From positions 1 to 64,000 of the forward strand of contig CAIONQ010000081.1 in assembly GCA_903859705.1 (NCBI GenBank): a stretch of DNA of 64,000 nt, given 5' to 3'. Each line of letters opens with the position of its first letter. Within the stretch, counting starts at the first letter, position 1. The notes beneath the pieces are model-generated. The model was not told where the DNA came from and ran no database searches. It was given only the letters and a program-made list of their open reading frames with translations. Below are positions 3,751 to 51,606 of this stretch, in pieces. Source of the stretch: an uncultured Chthonomonas sp. (GTDB taxonomy: Bacteria; Armatimonadota; Chthonomonadetes; Chthonomonadales; Chthonomonadaceae). The translations under genes were made by a program, and so were the position numbers.

Positions 3751-5709
3751 ATGTTGTGTAACTCGGAACCTATCTGTTTTACAGTTTCCCTACTTGGCAC
3801 TCCCAGCATCAAACTGGGCGAGGTTACCATACGGCTTCGTTCGGCATCCGCCTGGGCAGCGCTTGCTTATCTTCTTGTACCAGACCGAGGCGAGAGCTTC
3901 ACACCCAATGGCCAGCCTGTTTCCCGAAAACTGCTTGCTGGTTGCATTTGGGATGGATGCATGGAGCCGCTTCAGGCCCTGCGCCAGGTACTTCTCTCTT
4001 TCAGAAGCTCACTGGGGAACGCTGCCTTACTTATTGACCGCAGTTTTGTGACTGCGCCAGCACATAGCTTTTGTACAGATCTGCAGATCATAGAATCATT
4101 GTGGACACAGGCCATGGGCCTGCCCGCCGCGGCCCATAGTGAGCGCATACATTTGCTCTCTCAGGCCGACCTGTTGATAGGCGGAGACTTTTTGGAGACA
4201 TGCTCGCTGGCTGCGCCGGCCGCAAGGGCTTGGCTGGATGTGATGCGCAGCCGTACCGTGAGTATGCTTGAGAAAGTGCTGCGCTTACTCTATTCCTCAT
4301 ACCTTGGCGTAACTAATCCCCATGCCGCATTTGAGGTGCTGATGCGCCTGTGTGCTATTTGTCCTGACAATGAGACATACAAAGCTCGCCTAATGGTACT
4401 GGGTAAGCATATTGATAGACCTTTGCTGCTTGAACAGCTTAAAGCTACGGACCCCTTTGAGATTATGTTGCCGGAGGTTCGCCGGCGAGAAATCAAGGGG
4501 CAGAAACTTGCAGGACGAGATGCACGGGCATTTAGTACTGTTTTGCACAGTCGCATTGCTACTCTTACACTGCCAATGAGAAACAGGCTGTTTGCACTCT
4601 CTGTATTGAATGCACCATTCAACCTTGCACTGGCAAGAGCAGTCTGTGCGGTGCCACAGGCGACACTCAGTGCTCTTGAAAAGTTGCACTTGTTAGACAA
4701 GGTTAACGGGGACTATCGCATGTTGGCGGCAGTTCAGGAGCTGTGCGATGAGAAGGTAACGCCCCGCGTGCGGAAAAGCGTAGAAGCTAAACGCCTGAAG
4801 TACTGCACAGATTACCTCGCTGCCATCTGGTATGGTTCGCCAGATTCCGAAGATTATTTCGCCAGCAGAAACGAAGCACGAGTGCATCTGGCACTTGCCG
4901 CAAATAACGTCGCTCAATTACCAGCAAGCTGCGAAACAAACGCATTTTATGGTTTGCTGAGGGCCTGTGGCGAGATCGATATTGCAACGGGGCTTGCTCC
5001 ATGGGCAGAGCGCGTCATGCATGGCTTCACAACAGAGTCTGCGCAGATGGCACAGACAGCACACATTGCCGGATGGATATGTGCCGAGCGCCATGATTAT
5101 TCCGCAGCCATTGAATGGCTTCATCGCGGTTTGGCAGTACCTGGATGTTACAGGGATATCCTCTATGGTTTGCTGGAAATATTAGTTACCTCGTTACATT
5201 ACAGTCGCCAACATTCAGAAGCACTTGAGGCAAGCAACAGATTGGAGGCTATATTTGAGCAAGATGAGTTACCACTGGCTGTAGCCAATACCATACGCTT
5301 CCGCGCAGAGATATATCTCGGCCTCCGAGAGCCGGAGGCCGCCATGGAATGCCTGCGCAAAACCGAGGAGTTGTATCTGCAATTAGCTGGTGTTGAACTT
5401 GGTATTGCCAATTGCCGTTACTGGATTGCCGAGATTCTGCGGAGAAATGGACAGCAAAATGAGGCGGAAGCAAATATCCGGGTATCTCTTGAGCTAAGGC
5501 TAAATTCAGGGGATATTACCGGGCAAGCCCAATGCCTGATCTGCCTTGCTCGCATTTTGAGGGAAAAGGGAGATGTACTCTCTGCCCGGCTGCACCTTCG
5601 AAACGCCATCTACCTGCTGGGTTCGGAAAGAGATCCAAAATCTCGCAAGATGGCTCAGGAGGAGCTGGATCTACTGGAAAATCAGATTGTCGTGACCGAT
5701 GCCCGTTAA
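3751..5709 (+). CDS. SARP/BTAD-like regulator with TPR C-terminus, no NB-ARC
   Basis: A 652-residue protein. Residues 1-105 resemble a degenerate SARP winged-helix domain (CFTVSLLGTPSIKLGE...). Residues 110-225 match the BTAD helical pattern, including the segment ADLLIGGDFLETC. The middle third (230-390) resembles the helical region that follows the ATPase in AfsR-like proteins, but no Walker A or B motif is present. Residues 400-640 are TPR-like helix pairs (for example ALEASNRLEAIFEQDELP and NEAEANIRVSLELRLNSGD). AfsR-family proteins usually carry an NB-ARC ATPase between BTAD and TPR; here it seems absent. The ribosome-binding site before ATG 3751 is weak. Probably a cytoplasmic regulator; target unknown. 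Confidence 0.7.
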   Translation: MLCNSEPICFTVSLLGTPSIKLGEVTIRLRSASAWAALAYLLVPDRGESFTPNGQPVSRKLLAGCIWDGCMEPLQALRQVLLSFRSSLGNAALLIDRSFVTAPAHSFCTDLQIIESLWTQAMGLPAAAHSERIHLLSQADLLIGGDFLETCSLAAPAARAWLDVMRSRTVSMLEKVLRLLYSSYLGVTNPHAAFEVLMRLCAICPDNETYKARLMVLGKHIDRPLLLEQLKATDPFEIMLPEVRRREIKGQKLAGRDARAFSTVLHSRIATLTLPMRNRLFALSVLNAPFNLALARAVCAVPQATLSALEKLHLLDKVNGDYRMLAAVQELCDEKVTPRVRKSVEAKRLKYCTDYLAAIWYGSPDSEDYFASRNEARVHLALAANNVAQLPASCETNAFYGLLRACGEIDIATGLAPWAERVMHGFTTESAQMAQTAHIAGWICAERHDYSAAIEWLHRGLAVPGCYRDILYGLLEILVTSLHYSRQHSEALEASNRLEAIFEQDELPLAVANTIRFRAEIYLGLREPEAAMECLRKTEELYLQLAGVELGIANCRYWIAEILRRNGQQNEAEANIRVSLELRLNSGDITGQAQCLICLARILREKGDVLSARLHLRNAIYLLGSERDPKSRKMAQEELDLLENQIVVTDAR

Positions 5710-43056: not shown

Positions 43057-45834
43057 TTAAGGCGTTACCGCAGCCTTAATCTCTTCTGCCGTAAGCGCCC
43101 GAGCATAGAACGCAACATCCGCTATCCGCCCAACAAAGTGCTCGCCGCCAATAAAATTGGGGTTGTAGCCTACCCCAACTTCTGTGCTTGCCGAATGGAT
43201 ATGCTCCGGCACCTTTACCGGCTTGCCCGCAACGCCATTAACGTAAAGCGTTAAGGTTGCGCCCTGCTTCACGGCCGCCACATGAAACCACTGACCACGT
43301 TCGATTGGCACCGCTTCTGTCGCGATAAAGCTACCTGCCTCCATCCGTGCGGAAACGCTGGTTCCGGCCACCAACACTCTCAGCGGGTCATCGAGGCCGC
43401 GGCACCAGGCAGAAAAGATCTGCTCTCCGCCGGTGGGTGGCCCATCCACACAGGCCCAACCAATAAACGAATAATCTCTCTCCGGGAAAAAGGGCAGCGT
43501 GTACTTCAGCCTGGTCTCTGCACCAAAGCTCAGCGCTCTGCCAGCCTCTCCATGCCGATCCAACGCAGGCATTGTTCCCTCTTCTGTATGCTTATCGCCA
43601 AAAGAGGGGTTGCCATTGCCGGCGAGCTGCGCGGCCAACATCAGGCCATCCGCTCGCACCGATGCAAACGGATGTGGGGCTGTGCGGGATACATGCAGAA
43701 GCCGGGGTCCATTGTCGTTGGCCACAAAACCGTAGGCATTCACTGTTCTAACCTGCCACCAGTATTCGCCATCGCCAAGTATAGAAAGATCCACAGTGGT
43801 GGAAGCGCTCTTTAATCCCTTTTCATGAATGATCGGCGCTTTCATATCTGCTGAAGCCGAAACCAACACATCGTACATATCTTCCGGGCCAGCTGCAGCA
43901 GACCAGCGCAGAAGGGCTGGTCCCGGTTTTCCGAGCGTGCCCGGGCGTGGCAACTCAAGGCCTACGGCAGGCGGAGGCATGTGCGATGCCGGTACCCAGG
44001 CTGCATAATCTGTGCCGGTTGCGCCCGCCGAAGCAAAGTCGCAGAACGTAACCTTCTGCCCACCCTGTGCCACTGCACGCCACAGTCCCATGGGTGCAAG
44101 CACCCCTGCTGGTGCAGGGAGCTTCTCGAAATGGAGCTTAGACACATCCAGTTGCTTGAGAGCCGTGGTCTCGGCAGAATTGTGTGCAGCATCTACAGCC
44201 AGCAGCAACGGCCCAATGTGTATGGCCGCGCGGCCCGCCCTTTCGGGGCCACGGCCAACAGAATAACGTGGCGACAATTCGAAATCTACCTGAACGGTAT
44301 CTCCGGATTTCCAGGTTCTCTCGATGGTGCAATAGCTGCCTGCAACAGCCGCGATGGGAGCTCCATTTACCGTTACATGGGTGGTTTTGGACCAGGCAGG
44401 TATGCGCAGCTGTAGGCCAAAACGTGTTTTACGCTGCGGGTTAACTACGATATGTACCGTTCCGCCTAATGGGTAACTCGTTTTCTGAACAATGCGCAAT
44501 CGGTTCCCTGGCGCAAGCGGAACATCAAACGTACCGGGGCCATAGTAGTTAACGGCCACGGCTGCAGCGGAACCAGGCGACCGGTTTGAAGCAGACATCA
44601 TAGCCCAGTCCGAAAGCATACCAAGTGACCTTGGCGCATTTACAGAGCAGCAGTTGAGCTCCGGAGATCCCGGCCGGTACTGGAAGTTTATCTGCTGATA
44701 CGCCGGAGCACGCGTCCCGTTGAGCGGCGTATCGTAAGTGCACCAATTGCCAGAGGGATGTTGGGCCGCAAGCGCCTGGTTCCAAAACGTAAGTTCTAAT
44801 TCATCGGCAATAGTGGGGTCGCCAGTTAATCGCAGGGCATCAATCGTTAGTGCCATCCAGGCAACGCTGCAGCATGTTTCGATTGGGCCAGCTGCAAAAA
44901 TGGTGCCAGAAGCCTGTTCGTTGGTCGAAAAGGCCCCTGAGGGGTGAACATCGTACTTACGAATGCTGTGCCACAGTGAGAGCAGCGCCTTTTTGTACCT
45001 CACTTCTCCGGTGGCCTCGTACATAGTGCTGAAGCCCTGCAATAAGTGCAGTGCCTCCCACCGGGCACCGCTGCCAGGCAGCTGATAGTACGGCACGCCG
45101 GCAATGCCTTTGTTCAGCCAATCACCATCCTTCGGCAAATCTTCCTCAACGCGGCGAACAAAAGAAAGGTAGCGTGAGCTGCCCGTACGCTTATATAGCT
45201 CCGCCATAATGTGGTACACGCTGAGGTTAAAGTTGGCATTTCCGGCATCAATTGGCCGCCGCTTTGTATCTACATACAACCGGCAGATGCAGTCTGCCGC
45301 CCTAATCACGCTATCGTATGCGTGTTTATCTCCTGTGGCGTCGTACCACATTAACAGGCCAAGCATGCAATGGTAGTGGCCCCATAGGTCGCAATCCCCC
45401 ATAAGGCGGCGAGCATGTGGAAACGGACCAAGGTATCCATCAGAATCCTGGCAAGCCATCAGATCTTTTACAAACTTCTGAGTGGCAGCTTTTACCCTGG
45501 GATCGGATGACATTCTGCAGGCCTGAACGGCAGAAATAAGGTACTTACCGGCAAATTCGCCAGCCCAGGGCACAATCTCCGGGTAGGGCAGGTGCCTATC
45601 TCTGCGGTGAAACATATCCAGCAGGCCGGGGTTCGCATCTGGCATTCTCAACAGCCAGTTTTCAACATTTCTGGCAATGCGAGAGCCAGGCTCCCCTTCG
45701 AAGTGCCAGTTAGATCCAGGAAGCGTCTCCATCGCCACTTTCCCCTTATGTTCGGAGTTCGCAACTGCCATCCCTGGCGCGGAAAGCGCACACAGGGCAG
45801 CCAGCAACCAGGCAACAAATCGCACAGAACGCAT
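43057..45834 (-). CDS. GH127-family glycosidase (beta-L-arabinofuranosidase-like) with LamG domain
   Basis: 925 residues, exported (signal peptide through GMAVANS). Residues 35-560 match the GH127/DUF1680 alpha/alpha barrel: WAGEFAGKYLISAVQ, DSDGYLGPF, and the zinc-site elements G-P-I-E-T-C-C (about 319) and LNCCSVNAPR (about 395), with the catalytic cysteine. A linker with fibronectin-III character follows (DGEYWWQVRTVNAYG at about 690). The last 200 residues are a LamG/concanavalin-like domain (QWFHVAAVKQGATLTLYVNG; VGRIADVAFYARALTAEEI), likely for glycan binding. ATG 45834 has GGAGG at proper spacing; GTG 45840 overlaps that site. Confidence 0.9.
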   Translation of the reverse strand: MRSVRFVAWLLAALCALSAPGMAVANSEHKGKVAMETLPGSNWHFEGEPGSRIARNVENWLLRMPDANPGLLDMFHRRDRHLPYPEIVPWAGEFAGKYLISAVQACRMSSDPRVKAATQKFVKDLMACQDSDGYLGPFPHARRLMGDCDLWGHYHCMLGLLMWYDATGDKHAYDSVIRAADCICRLYVDTKRRPIDAGNANFNLSVYHIMAELYKRTGSSRYLSFVRRVEEDLPKDGDWLNKGIAGVPYYQLPGSGARWEALHLLQGFSTMYEATGEVRYKKALLSLWHSIRKYDVHPSGAFSTNEQASGTIFAAGPIETCCSVAWMALTIDALRLTGDPTIADELELTFWNQALAAQHPSGNWCTYDTPLNGTRAPAYQQINFQYRPGSPELNCCSVNAPRSLGMLSDWAMMSASNRSPGSAAAVAVNYYGPGTFDVPLAPGNRLRIVQKTSYPLGGTVHIVVNPQRKTRFGLQLRIPAWSKTTHVTVNGAPIAAVAGSYCTIERTWKSGDTVQVDFELSPRYSVGRGPERAGRAAIHIGPLLLAVDAAHNSAETTALKQLDVSKLHFEKLPAPAGVLAPMGLWRAVAQGGQKVTFCDFASAGATGTDYAAWVPASHMPPPAVGLELPRPGTLGKPGPALLRWSAAAGPEDMYDVLVSASADMKAPIIHEKGLKSASTTVDLSILGDGEYWWQVRTVNAYGFVANDNGPRLLHVSRTAPHPFASVRADGLMLAAQLAGNGNPSFGDKHTEEGTMPALDRHGEAGRALSFGAETRLKYTLPFFPERDYSFIGWACVDGPPTGGEQIFSAWCRGLDDPLRVLVAGTSVSARMEAGSFIATEAVPIERGQWFHVAAVKQGATLTLYVNGVAGKPVKVPEHIHSASTEVGVGYNPNFIGGEHFVGRIADVAFYARALTAEEIKAAVTP

Positions 45835-45865
45835 CTTCACCTCCGGCGAGTACCATCCAGGTTAT

Positions 45866-46631: not shown

Positions 46632-46660
46632 TTTACTTTGCCCACTCCCTGTGATATACT
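46632..46660 (+). promoter_or_regulatory. Sigma-70 promoter of the structured leader
   Basis: TTTACT (46632-46637) and TATACT (46655-46660) with a 17-base spacer. The start would be near 46667, exactly at the 5' edge of the structured leader. Confidence 0.6.
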
Positions 46661-46667
46661 TTAGCAC

Positions 46668-46820
46668 GCATCACGAGGAGCCCAGTGGGCTCAGCAACCG
46701 GGTTGGAGAACCACGGTGCCCCGGGGATAATCTCTCCGATGTGCGCAGTCAAACACTGCGAAAAAATCTCCCGGACAGGTCTCGTCCGCCACCGCTCGCT
46801 GATGCGAACGGTGGTTTTTT
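46668..46820 (+). ncRNA. Structured leader resembling a SAM-I/SAM-IV riboswitch
   Basis: P1: CGCATC (46668-46673) with GATGTG (46738-46743). Inside it lie hairpin GAGCCC-AGT-GGGCTC, then AGCAACC, hairpin GGTT-GGAG-AACC, then ACGGTGCCCCGGGG. The order hairpin, GCAACC, hairpin, GGTGCC is the conserved core of the SAM clan (SAM-I/IV). Downstream come hairpins CGCAGT/ACTGCG and CGGAC/GTCCG and a terminator, an ordinary expression platform. No methionine gene follows; the first gene is a DUF3293 protein. The assignment to the SAM clan is by eye. Confidence 0.45.
46789..46820 (+). terminator. Terminator of the structured leader
   Basis: CCACCG (46789-46794) pairs with CGGTGG (46809-46814), with an inner TCGC/GCGA stem, followed by six T. 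It can act as the off-state of the leader. Confidence 0.8.
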
Positions 46821-46922
46821 GTTTGTCTGAATCTTCTGATTCATACCGTCTAAACGCCCTGTCCGGCCATTTCGGCCGTGCACAGCCATCAGGCGAGCAA
46901 TAAAACCCCGGGGGTATGCATC

Positions 46923-47420
46923 ATGACACTGCTATCATCCGCGCAGGATAATCATAACAATCATACTGTAGAAGCGCCAACACCACCCGCTGAGCTGGAG
47001 AAGGCGTTTCTTGCCACCACATACTGTGTGCATCACGATAACTCGCTGCTTCGCATTCGGCCGGGTATGCTTTCCAAGCATCTCGATGAACTGCTTAAGC
47101 GGATAGGTGCAGAGGCATGGGCCTTTATTACGGCATCCAATCCGGGTTGCCTGGCACTATCTGATGAAGAGAACCGGGCCCGGCATTCAGAACTACGCCG
47201 AGCTGTACTAAAACTGGGTTTTACATGCCTCAATGGGTATGGCCTGGGAGATGCCGGTGATTGGCCAGCAGAAGAGAGCCTGCTTGTGGTAAGCGCCACA
47301 GAAGAACAGGCTCTTGCACTGGGGCAACAATTCGGACAGCTGGCCGTGATCTATGGCAGAGTTGGCGAAGTTTCCAGATTGCTGTGGACGCCCCTCACAG
47401 CCGAATCTACAGAAGCCTGA
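46923..47420 (+). CDS. DUF3293-like protein
   Basis: 165 residues. It matches the DUF3293 pattern: AFITASNPGCLALSDEENRARHSELRR, then LNGYGLGDAGDWPAEESLLV and the ending EQALALGQQFGQLAVIYG. The family has no assigned function. ATG 46923 has GGGGG in the leader at about 8 bases; the frame opens at 46878. It is the first gene after the riboswitch-like leader and terminator, so its expression is probably controlled by read-through. Confidence 0.8.
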   Translation: MTLLSSAQDNHNNHTVEAPTPPAELEKAFLATTYCVHHDNSLLRIRPGMLSKHLDELLKRIGAEAWAFITASNPGCLALSDEENRARHSELRRAVLKLGFTCLNGYGLGDAGDWPAEESLLVVSATEEQALALGQQFGQLAVIYGRVGEVSRLLWTPLTAESTEA

Positions 47421-47464: not shown

Positions 47465-48790
47465 ATGGTTAAGACTGTGAGAAAAGCCCCGCTCGCTCTA
47501 ATTGCCACCTGCCTTGTCATGCTGTTTGTGCTCTGCCCATGCGGGCAAGCACAAACCAATGATTATCCTCTGGTAGCGGCAAAAGAGTGCACGCCGCGCC
47601 TGGGTTTACCCAACCTCATTGCCCGAGCAAACCGCAAAGGCTCAGAGGTGAAGATTGGTTACCTTGGTGGCTCCATTACAGCACAGCCAGGCTGGCGAGT
47701 TTTGTCCCTCGCCCTGCTCCAGAAAACCTTCCCCAATGCTCACTTCGCCGAAATCAATGCGGCAATCGGCGGCACTGGCTCCGACTTAGGAGTTTTCCGA
47801 CTGCAGCACGATGTGCTGGATTTCAAACCCGATCTGCTATTTGTAGAGTTTGCTGTTAACGATGGCGGTGCCTCGCCGCAGCAGATAACCCGCTGCATGG
47901 AGGGAATAGTACGGCAAACCTGGCACACCCTTCCCAATTGCGACATCTGCTTTGTTTACACCGTTACAGAGAGCCTTGCAGCTCCCATGATCACGGATGG
48001 CAAATTCCCACGCTCCGCCAGCGTGATGGAGGCAGTAGCAGATAGATATGGCATTCCATCCATCCATATGGCAATGCAGGTTGCCGCACTCGCTAAGGCC
48101 GGCAAGCTGCTATGGAGTGCCCCACTCCCCAAAACAGACCAGGAGAAGGCCGCAGAAGCTGGCAAGGTAGTGTTTGCTGCGGATAGCGTCCACCCCTATC
48201 CCGAAACCGGGCATGTGCTGTATCGAGAGGCGATAGAACGATCACTGCCCGGCATTAGAGCCGCAAGCAAGCATGCAGGCAAGCACAAACTTGCCAAACC
48301 TCTGGATCCAGAAAACCTCGAGAGGGCATCTCTGGTACCTGTTTCGCCTGCGGTACTCAGCACCGGCTTTCAAAAACTGGATGCCGCTAGCAACAACATC
48401 GCGAAGTCGTTCGAGCATTATACGGGCGGCATCTACCGTGCAGCCAATGCCGGAGACAAACTAAGCTTTAAATTTAAAGGCACGTACGCAGCCGTATACG
48501 ATATTATTGGCCCGGATTGCGGGCAAGTGCGTGTAACCATAGATGGCGGTGCGCCACGCACAGTCGCTCGATTTGATAGTTTCTGTACCTACCACCGCCT
48601 GGCAACGCTGCTTCTGGCATCTGATCTCAAAGACGATATCCACACCGTTACCGTTGAAATACTGCCCGATCAACCAGACAAGGCAACCATTCTCGCCTCT
48701 CGTGGAGAAAAAATGGATAACCCTGTACGGTTCAATGATCGAGCGTTCTACCCGGGTGCACTGCTGCTGGTGGGCGAACTCATTCGCTGA
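47465..48790 (+). CDS. Exported SGNH/GDSL-type hydrolase
   Basis: 441 residues with a signal peptide (ALIATCLVMLFVLCPCGQAQ). SGNH blocks: GYLGGSITAQPGW (Ser), IGGTGSD (Gly), FAVNDGG (Asn) and DSVHPYPETGH (Asp/His). Such enzymes act as carbohydrate acetyl-esterases or lipases; the C-terminal part (LSFKFKGTYAAVYDIIGPD...) is a beta-sandwich that may bind carbohydrate. The start is uncertain: ATG 47465 abuts AGAAGG; GTG 47477 has better spacing. It begins 45 bases after the DUF3293 gene. Confidence 0.85.
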   Translation: MVKTVRKAPLALIATCLVMLFVLCPCGQAQTNDYPLVAAKECTPRLGLPNLIARANRKGSEVKIGYLGGSITAQPGWRVLSLALLQKTFPNAHFAEINAAIGGTGSDLGVFRLQHDVLDFKPDLLFVEFAVNDGGASPQQITRCMEGIVRQTWHTLPNCDICFVYTVTESLAAPMITDGKFPRSASVMEAVADRYGIPSIHMAMQVAALAKAGKLLWSAPLPKTDQEKAAEAGKVVFAADSVHPYPETGHVLYREAIERSLPGIRAASKHAGKHKLAKPLDPENLERASLVPVSPAVLSTGFQKLDAASNNIAKSFEHYTGGIYRAANAGDKLSFKFKGTYAAVYDIIGPDCGQVRVTIDGGAPRTVARFDSFCTYHRLATLLLASDLKDDIHTVTVEILPDQPDKATILASRGEKMDNPVRFNDRAFYPGALLLVGELIR

Positions 48791-48852: not shown

Positions 48853-49023
48853 ATGTCAGCTATCCTCAGTGTTACCGTGGGAGCAGCCCTGATAGCAACG
48901 GCAACAGGCGTTGCAGGCGCAGTAATTTACCGGGCCGCTCGAAGTATTGAGTCGTTTCGCCACGACGACCATGAGGCGTTCACTTCTAAGAACCATTCCG
49001 CCAGCAACGGAGGCGGAAAGTGA
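48853..49023 (+). CDS. 56-residue membrane peptide coupled to the permease
   Basis: ATG 48853 with AGGAG six bases upstream gives a 56-residue protein: one hydrophobic helix (ILSVTVGAALIATATGVAG) followed by a charged, Ser/His/Gly-rich tail ending NGGGK. Its TGA overlaps the GTG start of the permease (GTGA), a strong sign of translational coupling. It may be an accessory subunit of the transporter; no family recognised. Confidence 0.75.
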   Translation: MSAILSVTVGAALIATATGVAGAVIYRAARSIESFRHDDHEAFTSKNHSASNGGGK

Positions 49024-50603
49024 CAGATGGATCGGAACTGCAGGCACTTACGCAGGAAGAGGCAGATAAGCATGCCCTACACCACTTCGGATATGCGCAG
49101 CAGCTCTTGCGAGATATGGGTGGCTTCTCCAACTTCGCAATCTCGTTTTCCGTAATCTCCATTCTAACCGGCGCAGTAACGCTGTACGGAATTGGCCTGA
49201 ACGCCGCCGGGCCTGCGGTAATGGGGATTGGCTGGCCTTTCGTTACTATCTTTGTGCTGCTAGTTTCTGCCTCAATTGCAGAGCTTGCCTCGGCAATCCC
49301 AACATCGGGCGCTCTGTACCACTGGTCCGCACTGCTAGGCGGTGCTGGCTGGGGCTGGATTACCGGCTGGCTCAACCTCATTGGTCTGGTGGCAACCATC
49401 TCTGCAATAGACTATGGCTGTGCCGGTTTTCTAGCCCCATTGCTCCATATGCCCTTTGTAGCTCCCGCTGAAGTAACCCGCAGCACAATGCAGGTATTCA
49501 CCTGCCTTCTTCTATCGCAGGCCGTGCTTAACCACGTTGGCATCCGAGTTGTTAGTAAGCTAAACGACCTGAGCGCCTGGTACCACATCATTGGCGTAGT
49601 GATCATTGTTGGCGCCCTTGCGTTCTTCGCACACCATCAGCCTATTGCTTTCCTGTATACATCCCACTTCTCCACTTTAAAACTGGGAAACACTTCACCA
49701 TCGTACGGTTACGCATTCATGAGTGGCCTGCTGCTGGCTCAATGGACCTATACAGGTTACGATGCCTCTGCCCATACTATTGAAGAAACAAAGGATGCTC
49801 GGGTTCGCGCCCCGTGGGGAATTTTCCTTTCCGTAGCGATCTCAGGCCTTGCCGGATATCTTTTAATATCGGCAGTTACGCTGGCCATTAAGGATTTGCC
49901 TGCCATTGCCGGGGCAGACAACCCATTTAGAGCGGTGTTTGAGGCCGCATTCCCCCACTCCAATTTTCCGGTGGTTGTGATGTGGATTGTCACCCTCGCA
50001 CAGTGGTTTTGCGGGCTTGCATGCGTTACCTCTACCAGCCGTATGATGTTTGCACTATCACGAGATAAGGGAATGCCGTTTTCCAGCACATGGGCCACCG
50101 TTAGCAAAAAGTATAGAACACCGGCATCGGCGGTTTGGCTAAGCGCGGGCCTGGCGTTCTTACTGCCCGCAGCCCTGCTCCTTTTCTTGCACTTTCAGCC
50201 CCATGCTGGCGACTTCACAACCCTCTATGGGGCCATTACGGGCATCAGTACCATAGGTCTCTATCTATCCTATGGCTTCCCAATTCTGCTAAAACTGCGC
50301 GCAGAACAGCGAGGCACCTGGAATGCAAAAACCTACGGGCCATGGAGTATGGGCAGCTGGAGCCGACCGATGAACGCCATAGCTGTAGTCTGGATAGCGT
50401 TCATAACGGTTCTGTTTGTTCTACCACCCAATGAACTTACAGGCAAGGTATTTGCCATCGTATTTGTGCTGCTGCTGGCTTACTATGCCGTGGCGGTGCG
50501 CGGGAAGTTCAAAGGCCCGGTACCACAGGCCCGCAGCGAACAGGACCTGCTTAGGATGGAACAGGAGTTTGAGAACTTGTCGGGCGCAACACAGGAGCCA
50601 TAA
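49020..50603 (+). CDS. APC-superfamily amino acid/amine permease
   Basis: 527 residues, about 12 membrane helices. The N-terminal signature RDMGGFSNFAISFSVISILTG and the segment PTSGALYHWSALLG are typical of the amino-acid/choline (GABA, choline permease) branch of the APC family; further on, FGCGLACVTSTSRMMFALSRDKG-like sequence (49999-50080) is conserved. GTG 49020 has GGAGG upstream. The downstream PhyH dioxygenase starts 1 base after the stop, so transporter and oxygenase are likely for the same compound. Confidence 0.88.
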   Translation: MTDGSELQALTQEEADKHALHHFGYAQQLLRDMGGFSNFAISFSVISILTGAVTLYGIGLNAAGPAVMGIGWPFVTIFVLLVSASIAELASAIPTSGALYHWSALLGGAGWGWITGWLNLIGLVATISAIDYGCAGFLAPLLHMPFVAPAEVTRSTMQVFTCLLLSQAVLNHVGIRVVSKLNDLSAWYHIIGVVIIVGALAFFAHHQPIAFLYTSHFSTLKLGNTSPSYGYAFMSGLLLAQWTYTGYDASAHTIEETKDARVRAPWGIFLSVAISGLAGYLLISAVTLAIKDLPAIAGADNPFRAVFEAAFPHSNFPVVVMWIVTLAQWFCGLACVTSTSRMMFALSRDKGMPFSSTWATVSKKYRTPASAVWLSAGLAFLLPAALLLFLHFQPHAGDFTTLYGAITGISTIGLYLSYGFPILLKLRAEQRGTWNAKTYGPWSMGSWSRPMNAIAVVWIAFITVLFVLPPNELTGKVFAIVFVLLLAYYAVAVRGKFKGPVPQARSEQDLLRMEQEFENLSGATQEP

Positions 50604-50604
50604 C

Positions 50605-51606
50605 ATGCCGGAAATAACAATGGGGTTAACCGAAACGCAGGTAGCACAGTTTCATCATGACGGTTTTCTGGTAGTGGAAGACCTGATTGACGACGCAATG
50701 CTTGCAGATTTACAGATGGGTATCACCGCTGAAATCGATAAGAGTTGCAGGGCGTTAATCGAATTGGGTGAACTCTCCCGAGATTACGCAGAGCTGCCGT
50801 TTGAGGAGCGCCTTACGGCTATGACCGCAGAAACTCCAAAAGTGATTGGGCGAATTACGGATGGGGCACTTGCTATTCCGGCTATATTTCGCCTGATAAG
50901 CTATGGCCCGCTGTTGGATGTTGCCGAGAGCCTTTGTGGTCCGGAGCTCATTGCTTCCAGCGTGTATCGGCTAAGGCCAAAGCTCCCCAACTATGGGCCT
51001 GGAGTTGTGCCGTGGCACCAGGATTCTGGTTATTTTGAGCCGTTTTGCGATAGTGCGCTCATCGTAACGTGCTGGGTACCACTCGTAGATGCAACCGCTG
51101 AAAACGGATGTCTGCAGGTTGTGAAAGGCGGACACACTGGGCCCGTTGTTAAGCATGGTGCCGGCCACCACTATCTGTTGAAAATTGCAGATGCCGATTT
51201 ACCTGAGGGCGAAATAGTTACTGTGCCCGTTAAACGGGGCGGTGTGCTACTTCTCACCAACCTTGTACCACACTGCTCGATACCAAATGTTTCAGAAGGT
51301 ATCCAATGGTCTATGGACCTACGATACCAGAGTGCCTCCCTGCCAACAAATGCGCCCATCACGCGCCTGCCCGATGAGATGCTGGATTCGGATGCTCCCC
51401 TGGCATGCTATCCTCCAGAGGCCGATGTACTGGTGAGGAGCGCAGAGAGGCCGGATCAAATAATAGCTTCTCCAGAGCAGTTCGAGGAAATTCGCCTGAA
51501 CCACATTCCTGGTGCAATTACGGAGCGCTGGGGCGATGAGAACTTATGGCGGCCCGGCGGTAAGCGCTGGACAGGGCATGCGCGCAAGAAGGTAGAACAA
51601 TCCTAA
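50605..51606 (+). CDS. Phytanoyl-CoA dioxygenase (PhyH) family oxygenase
   Basis: 333 residues, Fe(II)/2-oxoglutarate-dependent dioxygenase. H-x-D in VPWHQDSGYF (about 137-139), distal His in LVPHCSIPN (about 222) and a conserved Arg a few residues later in MDLRYQ complete the site. It starts with the typical FHHDGFLVVEDLID. Members hydroxylate lipids, ectoine or small amines. ATG 50605 has AGGAG at 9 bases and lies one base past the permease stop. Confidence 0.9.
   Translation: MPEITMGLTETQVAQFHHDGFLVVEDLIDDAMLADLQMGITAEIDKSCRALIELGELSRDYAELPFEERLTAMTAETPKVIGRITDGALAIPAIFRLISYGPLLDVAESLCGPELIASSVYRLRPKLPNYGPGVVPWHQDSGYFEPFCDSALIVTCWVPLVDATAENGCLQVVKGGHTGPVVKHGAGHHYLLKIADADLPEGEIVTVPVKRGGVLLLTNLVPHCSIPNVSEGIQWSMDLRYQSASLPTNAPITRLPDEMLDSDAPLACYPPEADVLVRSAERPDQIIASPEQFEEIRLNHIPGAITERWGDENLWRPGGKRWTGHARKKVEQS

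Follow-up and report, generated by a model that had tools for sequence, protein, structure and literature searches.

Our analysis points to a SAM-I/IV riboswitch that, through transcription termination, controls DUF3293, a protein that we place in the SAM-lyase superfamily as a cellular representative and that is predicted to act on SAM or a derivative and/or on MetK, the SAM-producing enzyme. We regard this reading, taken as a whole, as probable. Leader and gene lie in the window, that is, the whole 64,000-nucleotide stretch of DNA analyzed, and comprise the following elements together with the genes further downstream:

46632–46660, + strand: sigma-70-like promoter with extended −10 (TTTACT-17-TATACT, TG before the −10), a consensus match only
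46663–46776, + strand: SAM-I/IV riboswitch aptamer (RF01725; Rfam covariance model 50.1 bits; own model R1, trained on a set that includes this aptamer, 67.4 bits)
46667–46672, + strand: P1 5′ strand CGCATC, pairing with GATGTG at 46738–46743
46694–46699, + strand: core element GCAACC (sequence, Rfam alignment, invariant columns)
46705–46709, + strand: L3 GGAGA, candidate PK-2 strand with a 5-bp match to TCTCC at 46767–46771
46715–46720, + strand: core element GGTGCC (sequence, Rfam alignment, invariant columns)
46767–46771, + strand: candidate PK-2 3′ strand TCTCC, complement of L3 GGAGA
46789–46820, + strand: intrinsic terminator CCACCG...CGGTGG plus T6 (hairpin and T tract)
46795–46806, + strand: putative antiterminator 3′ half CTCGCTGATGCG, complementary to CGCATCACGAG at 46667–46677 over 11 bp with one bulged C
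46923–47420, + strand: DUF3293 protein, 165 aa, predicted SAM-lyase-like fold (PF11697, 69.2 bits)
47468–48790, + strand: SGNH/GDSL hydrolase, possibly co-transcribed; a neighbor whose linkage is not conserved
49020–50603, + strand: APC amino acid permease (AA_permease_2); a neighbor whose linkage is not conserved
50617–51606, + strand: PhyH-type dioxygenase; a neighbor whose linkage is not conserved

Judged by its sequence, the leader is a true SAM-I/IV riboswitch, with the methyl donor SAM as the predicted ligand. The original prediction had described a SAM-I/IV-like leader with a terminator and had proposed a covariance-model search with the models of the SAM clan; this search placed RF01725 above its curated cut-off (50.1 versus 41.1 bits), with the aptamer covering the model end to end (1–99 of 99) and E-values of 3.3e-5 in the scan of the 64-kb window and 2.6e-7 in a local scan. 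The match is one of two Rfam matches in the window and the only RF01725 copy in the 6.2-Mb genome. The P1-closed RNA with its GCAACC and GGTGCC core is present as claimed, and the core lies among the columns invariant across 29 aptamers. Both fold and Rfam alignment show P2 as a plain 6-bp hairpin without an internal loop, a SAM-I/IV feature (PMC2864571). None of 200 dinucleotide-shuffled versions folded as well as the leader (z −3.2). The candidate PK-2 between L3 and the 3′ tail is not significant for the window leader taken singly (p=0.23), but is so when 19 de-duplicated leaders are combined (p=0.0025). The leader shares the P1/P2/P3 layout, core, 3′ hairpin and candidate PK-2 of its class, and differs in the gene it controls, as DUF3293 is tied to no riboswitch in the literature searched. 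A new riboswitch class, which had also been considered, is ruled out by the RF01725 match; the RNA belongs to a known class and is new only as a member of it. That it might nevertheless be a new class, or a variant aptamer that binds a different ligand, is barely credible: many genes downstream of such leaders in the phylum are not classical sulfur genes, but the Rfam cut-off is exceeded, the core elements are intact and MetK genes follow SAM-I/IV leaders in the same phylum.

The layout of the leader argues for a transcriptional SAM-OFF switch, a sign of regulation that we infer because the 5′ half of the terminator can instead pair with the P1/J1-2 strand over 11 bp. Specifically, CTCGCTGATGCG spans part of the terminator 5′ half and the loop, and CGCATCACGAG the P1 5′ strand and J1/2; in a transcript that ends immediately ahead of the terminator 3′ arm, the helix formed by the two replaces P1 in the minimum free energy (MFE) structure. 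The isolated 7-bp part of this alternative helix was computed at −8.9 kcal/mol versus −6.9 for P1. Comparison with shuffled P1 strands gave p=0.003 for the window and, for 13 de-duplicated leaders taken together, p=2.2e-4, the signal being absent in leaders G041, G154, G171 and G026b. The sequence of the alternative pairing shifts along with that of P1, as a comparison of the window (CGCATCA:TGATGCG) with the same-genus genome G001 (TGCATCC:GGATGCA) and with G032 (CATCAG:CTGATG) shows; in G001, the antiterminator was not seen in the MFE of the truncated transcript, though the 7-bp complement is present. In the proposed mechanism, SAM binding would close P1 and allow the terminator at 46789–46820 to form (OFF). 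Without SAM, 46667–46677 would pair with 46795–46806, and RNA polymerase would read into DUF3293 (ON). The opposite sign, with SAM promoting read-through and a SAM lyase being made at SAM excess, draws on metabolic logic only and seems rather improbable, as the aptamer and the terminator occupy separate segments and are both present in the MFE of the leader, the alternative helix takes the P1 5′ strand as is usual in OFF layouts, and a similar layout precedes MetK2 operons (G217b, G124b). As for the promoter claimed ahead of the leader, a promoter-like element does stand at 46632–46660 and its predicted start falls at the P1 5′ strand, but position alone supports it, such sites being not commoner in the region than in shuffles (5 versus 4.1). 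Divergent from the leader, 43057–45840 (− strand) encodes a GH127 beta-L-arabinofuranosidase-type protein with a laminin-G-like domain.

The gene list given by the original prediction (DUF3293, SGNH hydrolase, small peptide, APC permease and PhyH) is correct and all members are co-directional, including the 56-aa open reading frame (ORF) between SGNH/GDSL hydrolase and AA_permease_2. Spacing and the lack of a + strand terminator-like site between DUF3293 and 49490 are compatible with a single five-gene operon, though only compatible. Sister species G001 carries an SGNH orthologue of 71% identity on a different contig and G042 a copy of 69–70% identity, neither with DUF3293, permease or PhyH beside it. 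Because the SGNH orthologues lack those neighbors, the genes after DUF3293 do not form part of a conserved SAM-linked unit, and we rejected the idea that all five genes together make up a SAM regulon. The suggested link of DUF3293 and the permease to sulfur or methyl metabolism therefore survives for DUF3293, through its MetK_C fusion, a Bacteroidota case and its SAM-lyase fold, but not for permease and PhyH, given the SGNH orthologues elsewhere.

We assign DUF3293 to SAM metabolism, where it is probably a cellular SAM-lyase-family protein with predicted activity. We place it there because of a SAM-lyase fold, aligned invariant residues, a MetK_C fusion behind a leader and a case in Gillisia. 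We modeled the window protein with AlphaFold2 (mean pLDDT 83, pTM 0.78) and searched the PDB for similar structures; the three highest Foldseek rows were phage SAM lyases (6znb, 7ock; E 0.0065 to 0.073). VIA-align ranked the T3 SAM lyase in its MetK complex first (Z 8.7 and 8.3), followed by Svi3-3 at 6.5 and the best unrelated row at 6.3, with unrelated designed proteins from there down. Again, a model of the Gillisia DUF3293 (pLDDT 89) matched the T3 lyase (Z 8.6 and 8.2), Svi3-3 (7.0 and 6.6) and the SAM-AMP lyase (5.3), the best unrelated row scoring 5.9. SAM lyases, which have a PII-like/GlnB-like fold (PMC7877911), are thus the best structural matches of both predicted models, which rest on essentially one alignment. 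The Foldseek E-values are weak, 0.0065 at best for the window model and 0.17 for the second; chlorite dismutase-like and PII families are also listed with weak scores, the PII proteins, which share the broader fold, standing lower in the fold lists of both models. Complementarily, and as a partly independent test, profile–profile comparison of 21 DUF3293 members with nine T3-type lyases gave E 1.2e-4, with none of 300 column shuffles as good and an hhalign probability of only 55%. In these profiles, N84, E117 and Q139 of DUF3293 align with N27, E68 and Q94 of the T3 enzyme, each residue being invariant in both alignments and, on the DUF3293 side, across 21 diverse members. In the window model, E117 opens the strand after a loop and Q139 lies between helix 127–136 and strand 141–146, so that hhalign and model together place them as the putative catalytic Glu at the T-loop end and the putative Gln in the B-loop.

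DUF3293 shares with the T3 SAM lyase (PF23780; PDB 7OCK, 8BB1) the fold (Z 8.7, 8.6) and the three aligned residues, and a tie to MetK, which the T3 protein contacts and to whose C-domain DUF3293 is fused in one genome. It differs in being cellular rather than phage-borne, in its own WA[FY]ITAxNP and WPPExS signatures and in lacking a PF23780 match. With Svi3-3 (6ZNB, 6ZM9), it has in common the PII-like fold (Z 6.5 and 7.0), the Glu at the T-loop end and the Gln in the B-loop, but is only 13–17% identical in structural alignments, and trimer and activity are putative for DUF3293. The type III CRISPR SAM-AMP lyase (9GAB) matches in fold at Z 5.3 and in the conserved Glu and Gln, the two residues structurally common with SAM-AMP lyase (PMC12255297), whereas in the DUF3293 loci read we noticed no CRISPR genes nearby. 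Mutation of the critical Svi3-3 Glu (E69) lowers activity 1500- to 4500-fold (PMC7877911); in the same study, phage SAM lyases were tested in vivo by rescue of an ilvA deletion strain. Glu117 and Gln139 of DUF3293 are predicted to serve at the places of Svi3-3 Glu69 and Gln104, and the protein to take SAM or a near derivative as a substrate that it binds and cleaves. When DUF3293 was searched by sequence against PDB, Pfam and PHROGs, no SAM lyases came up. Since no single member matches the Pfam model for the T3 type (S-AdoMet_lyase), we do not file DUF3293 under PF23780; what seems likely from sequence and model is superfamily kinship and a similar function, not membership in that family.

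DUF3293 occurs across several bacterial phyla; it was absent from the phages and IMG/VR viral contigs searched, and plasmids gave two weak matches. Rows for HTLV Gag in the DUF3293 search were attributed to chance similarity with an ITxYNP stretch. Divergent copies lie inside long open frames (at least 540 aa, stop to stop) at about 5442–5651 of locus L078 and 5834–5986 of L079; these frames look phage- or element-like and keep the Lys/Glu-x-Ser and Gln signatures. In L056, L064 and L065, DUF3293 is a C-terminal add-on of unrelated longer proteins, the partner domain in L064 resembling N-formylglutamate amidohydrolase by eye.

RF01725 is present in 18 of the 291 Armatimonadota genomes searched. 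On contig C445 of G001, a compact operon follows a SAM-I/IV leader that carries a terminator of its own; the genes are a 128-aa ORF, a 186-aa ORF, a MetK_C–DUF3293 fusion and a 127-aa ORF, which overlap or are separated by small gaps. The fusion comprises MetK_C (PF02773, 1.2e-47) and DUF3293 (8.5e-21). The MetK_C part shares only 52% identity with the MetK of the same species, which marks it as a diverged paralogue and makes a chimeric assembly an unlikely source of the fusion. As MetK loses its activity when the T3 SAM lyase binds it (PMC8406200), the fusion gains a natural meaning, and DUF3293 may additionally or instead act on MetK as the T3 enzyme does. Second MetK C-domain copies were found in 6 of 25 genomes, all six downstream of SAM-I/IV leaders; one is the G001 fusion, and the other five are divergent MetK genes that follow MoxR-AAA and VWA genes. 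This placement agrees with SAM being the ligand. The window genome has a single MetK, which lies on a different contig under a SAM-I riboswitch. A Gillisia metagenome-assembled genome (Bacteroidota) carries three SAM-I/IV aptamers within a 4-kb stretch; the second of these is followed by one other gene and then by DUF3293. By our own estimate from counts and genome sizes, over the other DUF3293 genomes, about 0.005 cases of a same-strand SAM-I/IV aptamer within ~3.3 kb upstream are expected by chance; two were seen (G001 and Gillisia). Most DUF3293 loci have no nearby SAM riboswitch. This absence, the weak Foldseek E-values and the designed ferredoxin folds close below in the lists would suit a real leader beside a DUF3293 without any SAM-related role, the neighborhood being coincidental and the fold match a common ferredoxin-like arrangement. 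Given co-location in a sister species and another phylum, the MetK_C fusion and a separate profile test in which three invariant residues line up, we consider such a coincidence distinctly improbable.

Several further leaders were recorded. In the Gillisia locus (L061, 2474–6332), the three aptamers mostly precede Pfam-less proteins (622, 223, 140 and 135 aa). SAM-I/IV leaders of one family (f14) at L086 2358–6480, L087 5167–470 (− strand), L023, L026 and L081 head operons of a MoxR-type AAA ATPase, a VWA/DUF2201 protein and a divergent second MetK, resembling a SAM-regulated backup MetK module. A SAM-I/IV aptamer with terminator, with a SAM-I aptamer directly after it, precedes a YbjN-like gene at L027 3533–3795, L028 7940–7679 (− strand) and L031 3556–3818, with an SNF2-like helicase next in L027 and L028 and an additional SAM-I aptamer at L028 6839–6945. 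A tandem pair of SAM-I/IV aptamers at L024 1771–2021 (− strand) precedes small unknown genes and a TY-Chap1 (YbjN/T3SS chaperone-like) protein. In a same-genus genome, a weak SAM-I/IV-like match (31.9 bits; L217 1501–1605, − strand) lies just upstream of an IS3-type-transposase-like gene pair. Among viral contigs, a DNA pattern for the aptamer matched 120 stretches.

A SAM-destroying enzyme under an apparent SAM-OFF switch is an apparent paradox, as it would create positive feedback and make poor homeostatic sense. Possible ways out may be another SAM-derived substrate, a regulatory MetK-binding role or an alarm responding to phage SAM depletion. The second of these is taken furthest by the view of DUF3293 as a PII-like SAM sensor without catalysis, which would bind MetK and adjust the rate of SAM synthesis; expressed at low SAM, such a protein would tune MetK rather than destroy SAM, and the paradox would be gone. 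The MetK_C–DUF3293 fusion, MetK binding and inhibition by the T3 enzyme (PMC8406200), the PII-like/GlnB-like fold of SAM lyases (PMC7877911) and the PII proteins lower in the fold lists are all on its side, but invariance of the catalytic Glu and conserved Gln in 21 diverse members suggests chemistry, and we hold the sensor to be unlikely, if worth keeping in mind. More speculative, and given little weight here, is the idea that the SAM-I/IV leaders are alarms for SAM depletion, for example by a phage SAM lyase, inducing either a divergent MetK2 (MoxR-VWA-MetK2) or the SAM-lyase-like/MetK-domain fusion; the outcome would be SAM synthesis restored with a phage-proof MetK, or a SAM-starved arrest. 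PADLOC anti-phage models gave no match among the SAM-I/IV-linked proteins tested.

Within the open-access literature, to which the search was confined, we found no publication naming DUF3293, and none placing it in the SAM-lyase superfamily, under a SAM riboswitch or in fusion with a MetK domain. The SAM-lyase enzyme type has so far been described mainly from phages and from one CRISPR accessory. If DUF3293 is a cellular SAM-lyase-family protein, it would constitute a chromosomal, riboswitch-controlled branch of that enzyme type, and a SAM-destroying protein made at SAM scarcity would, if true, pose a direct experimental question.
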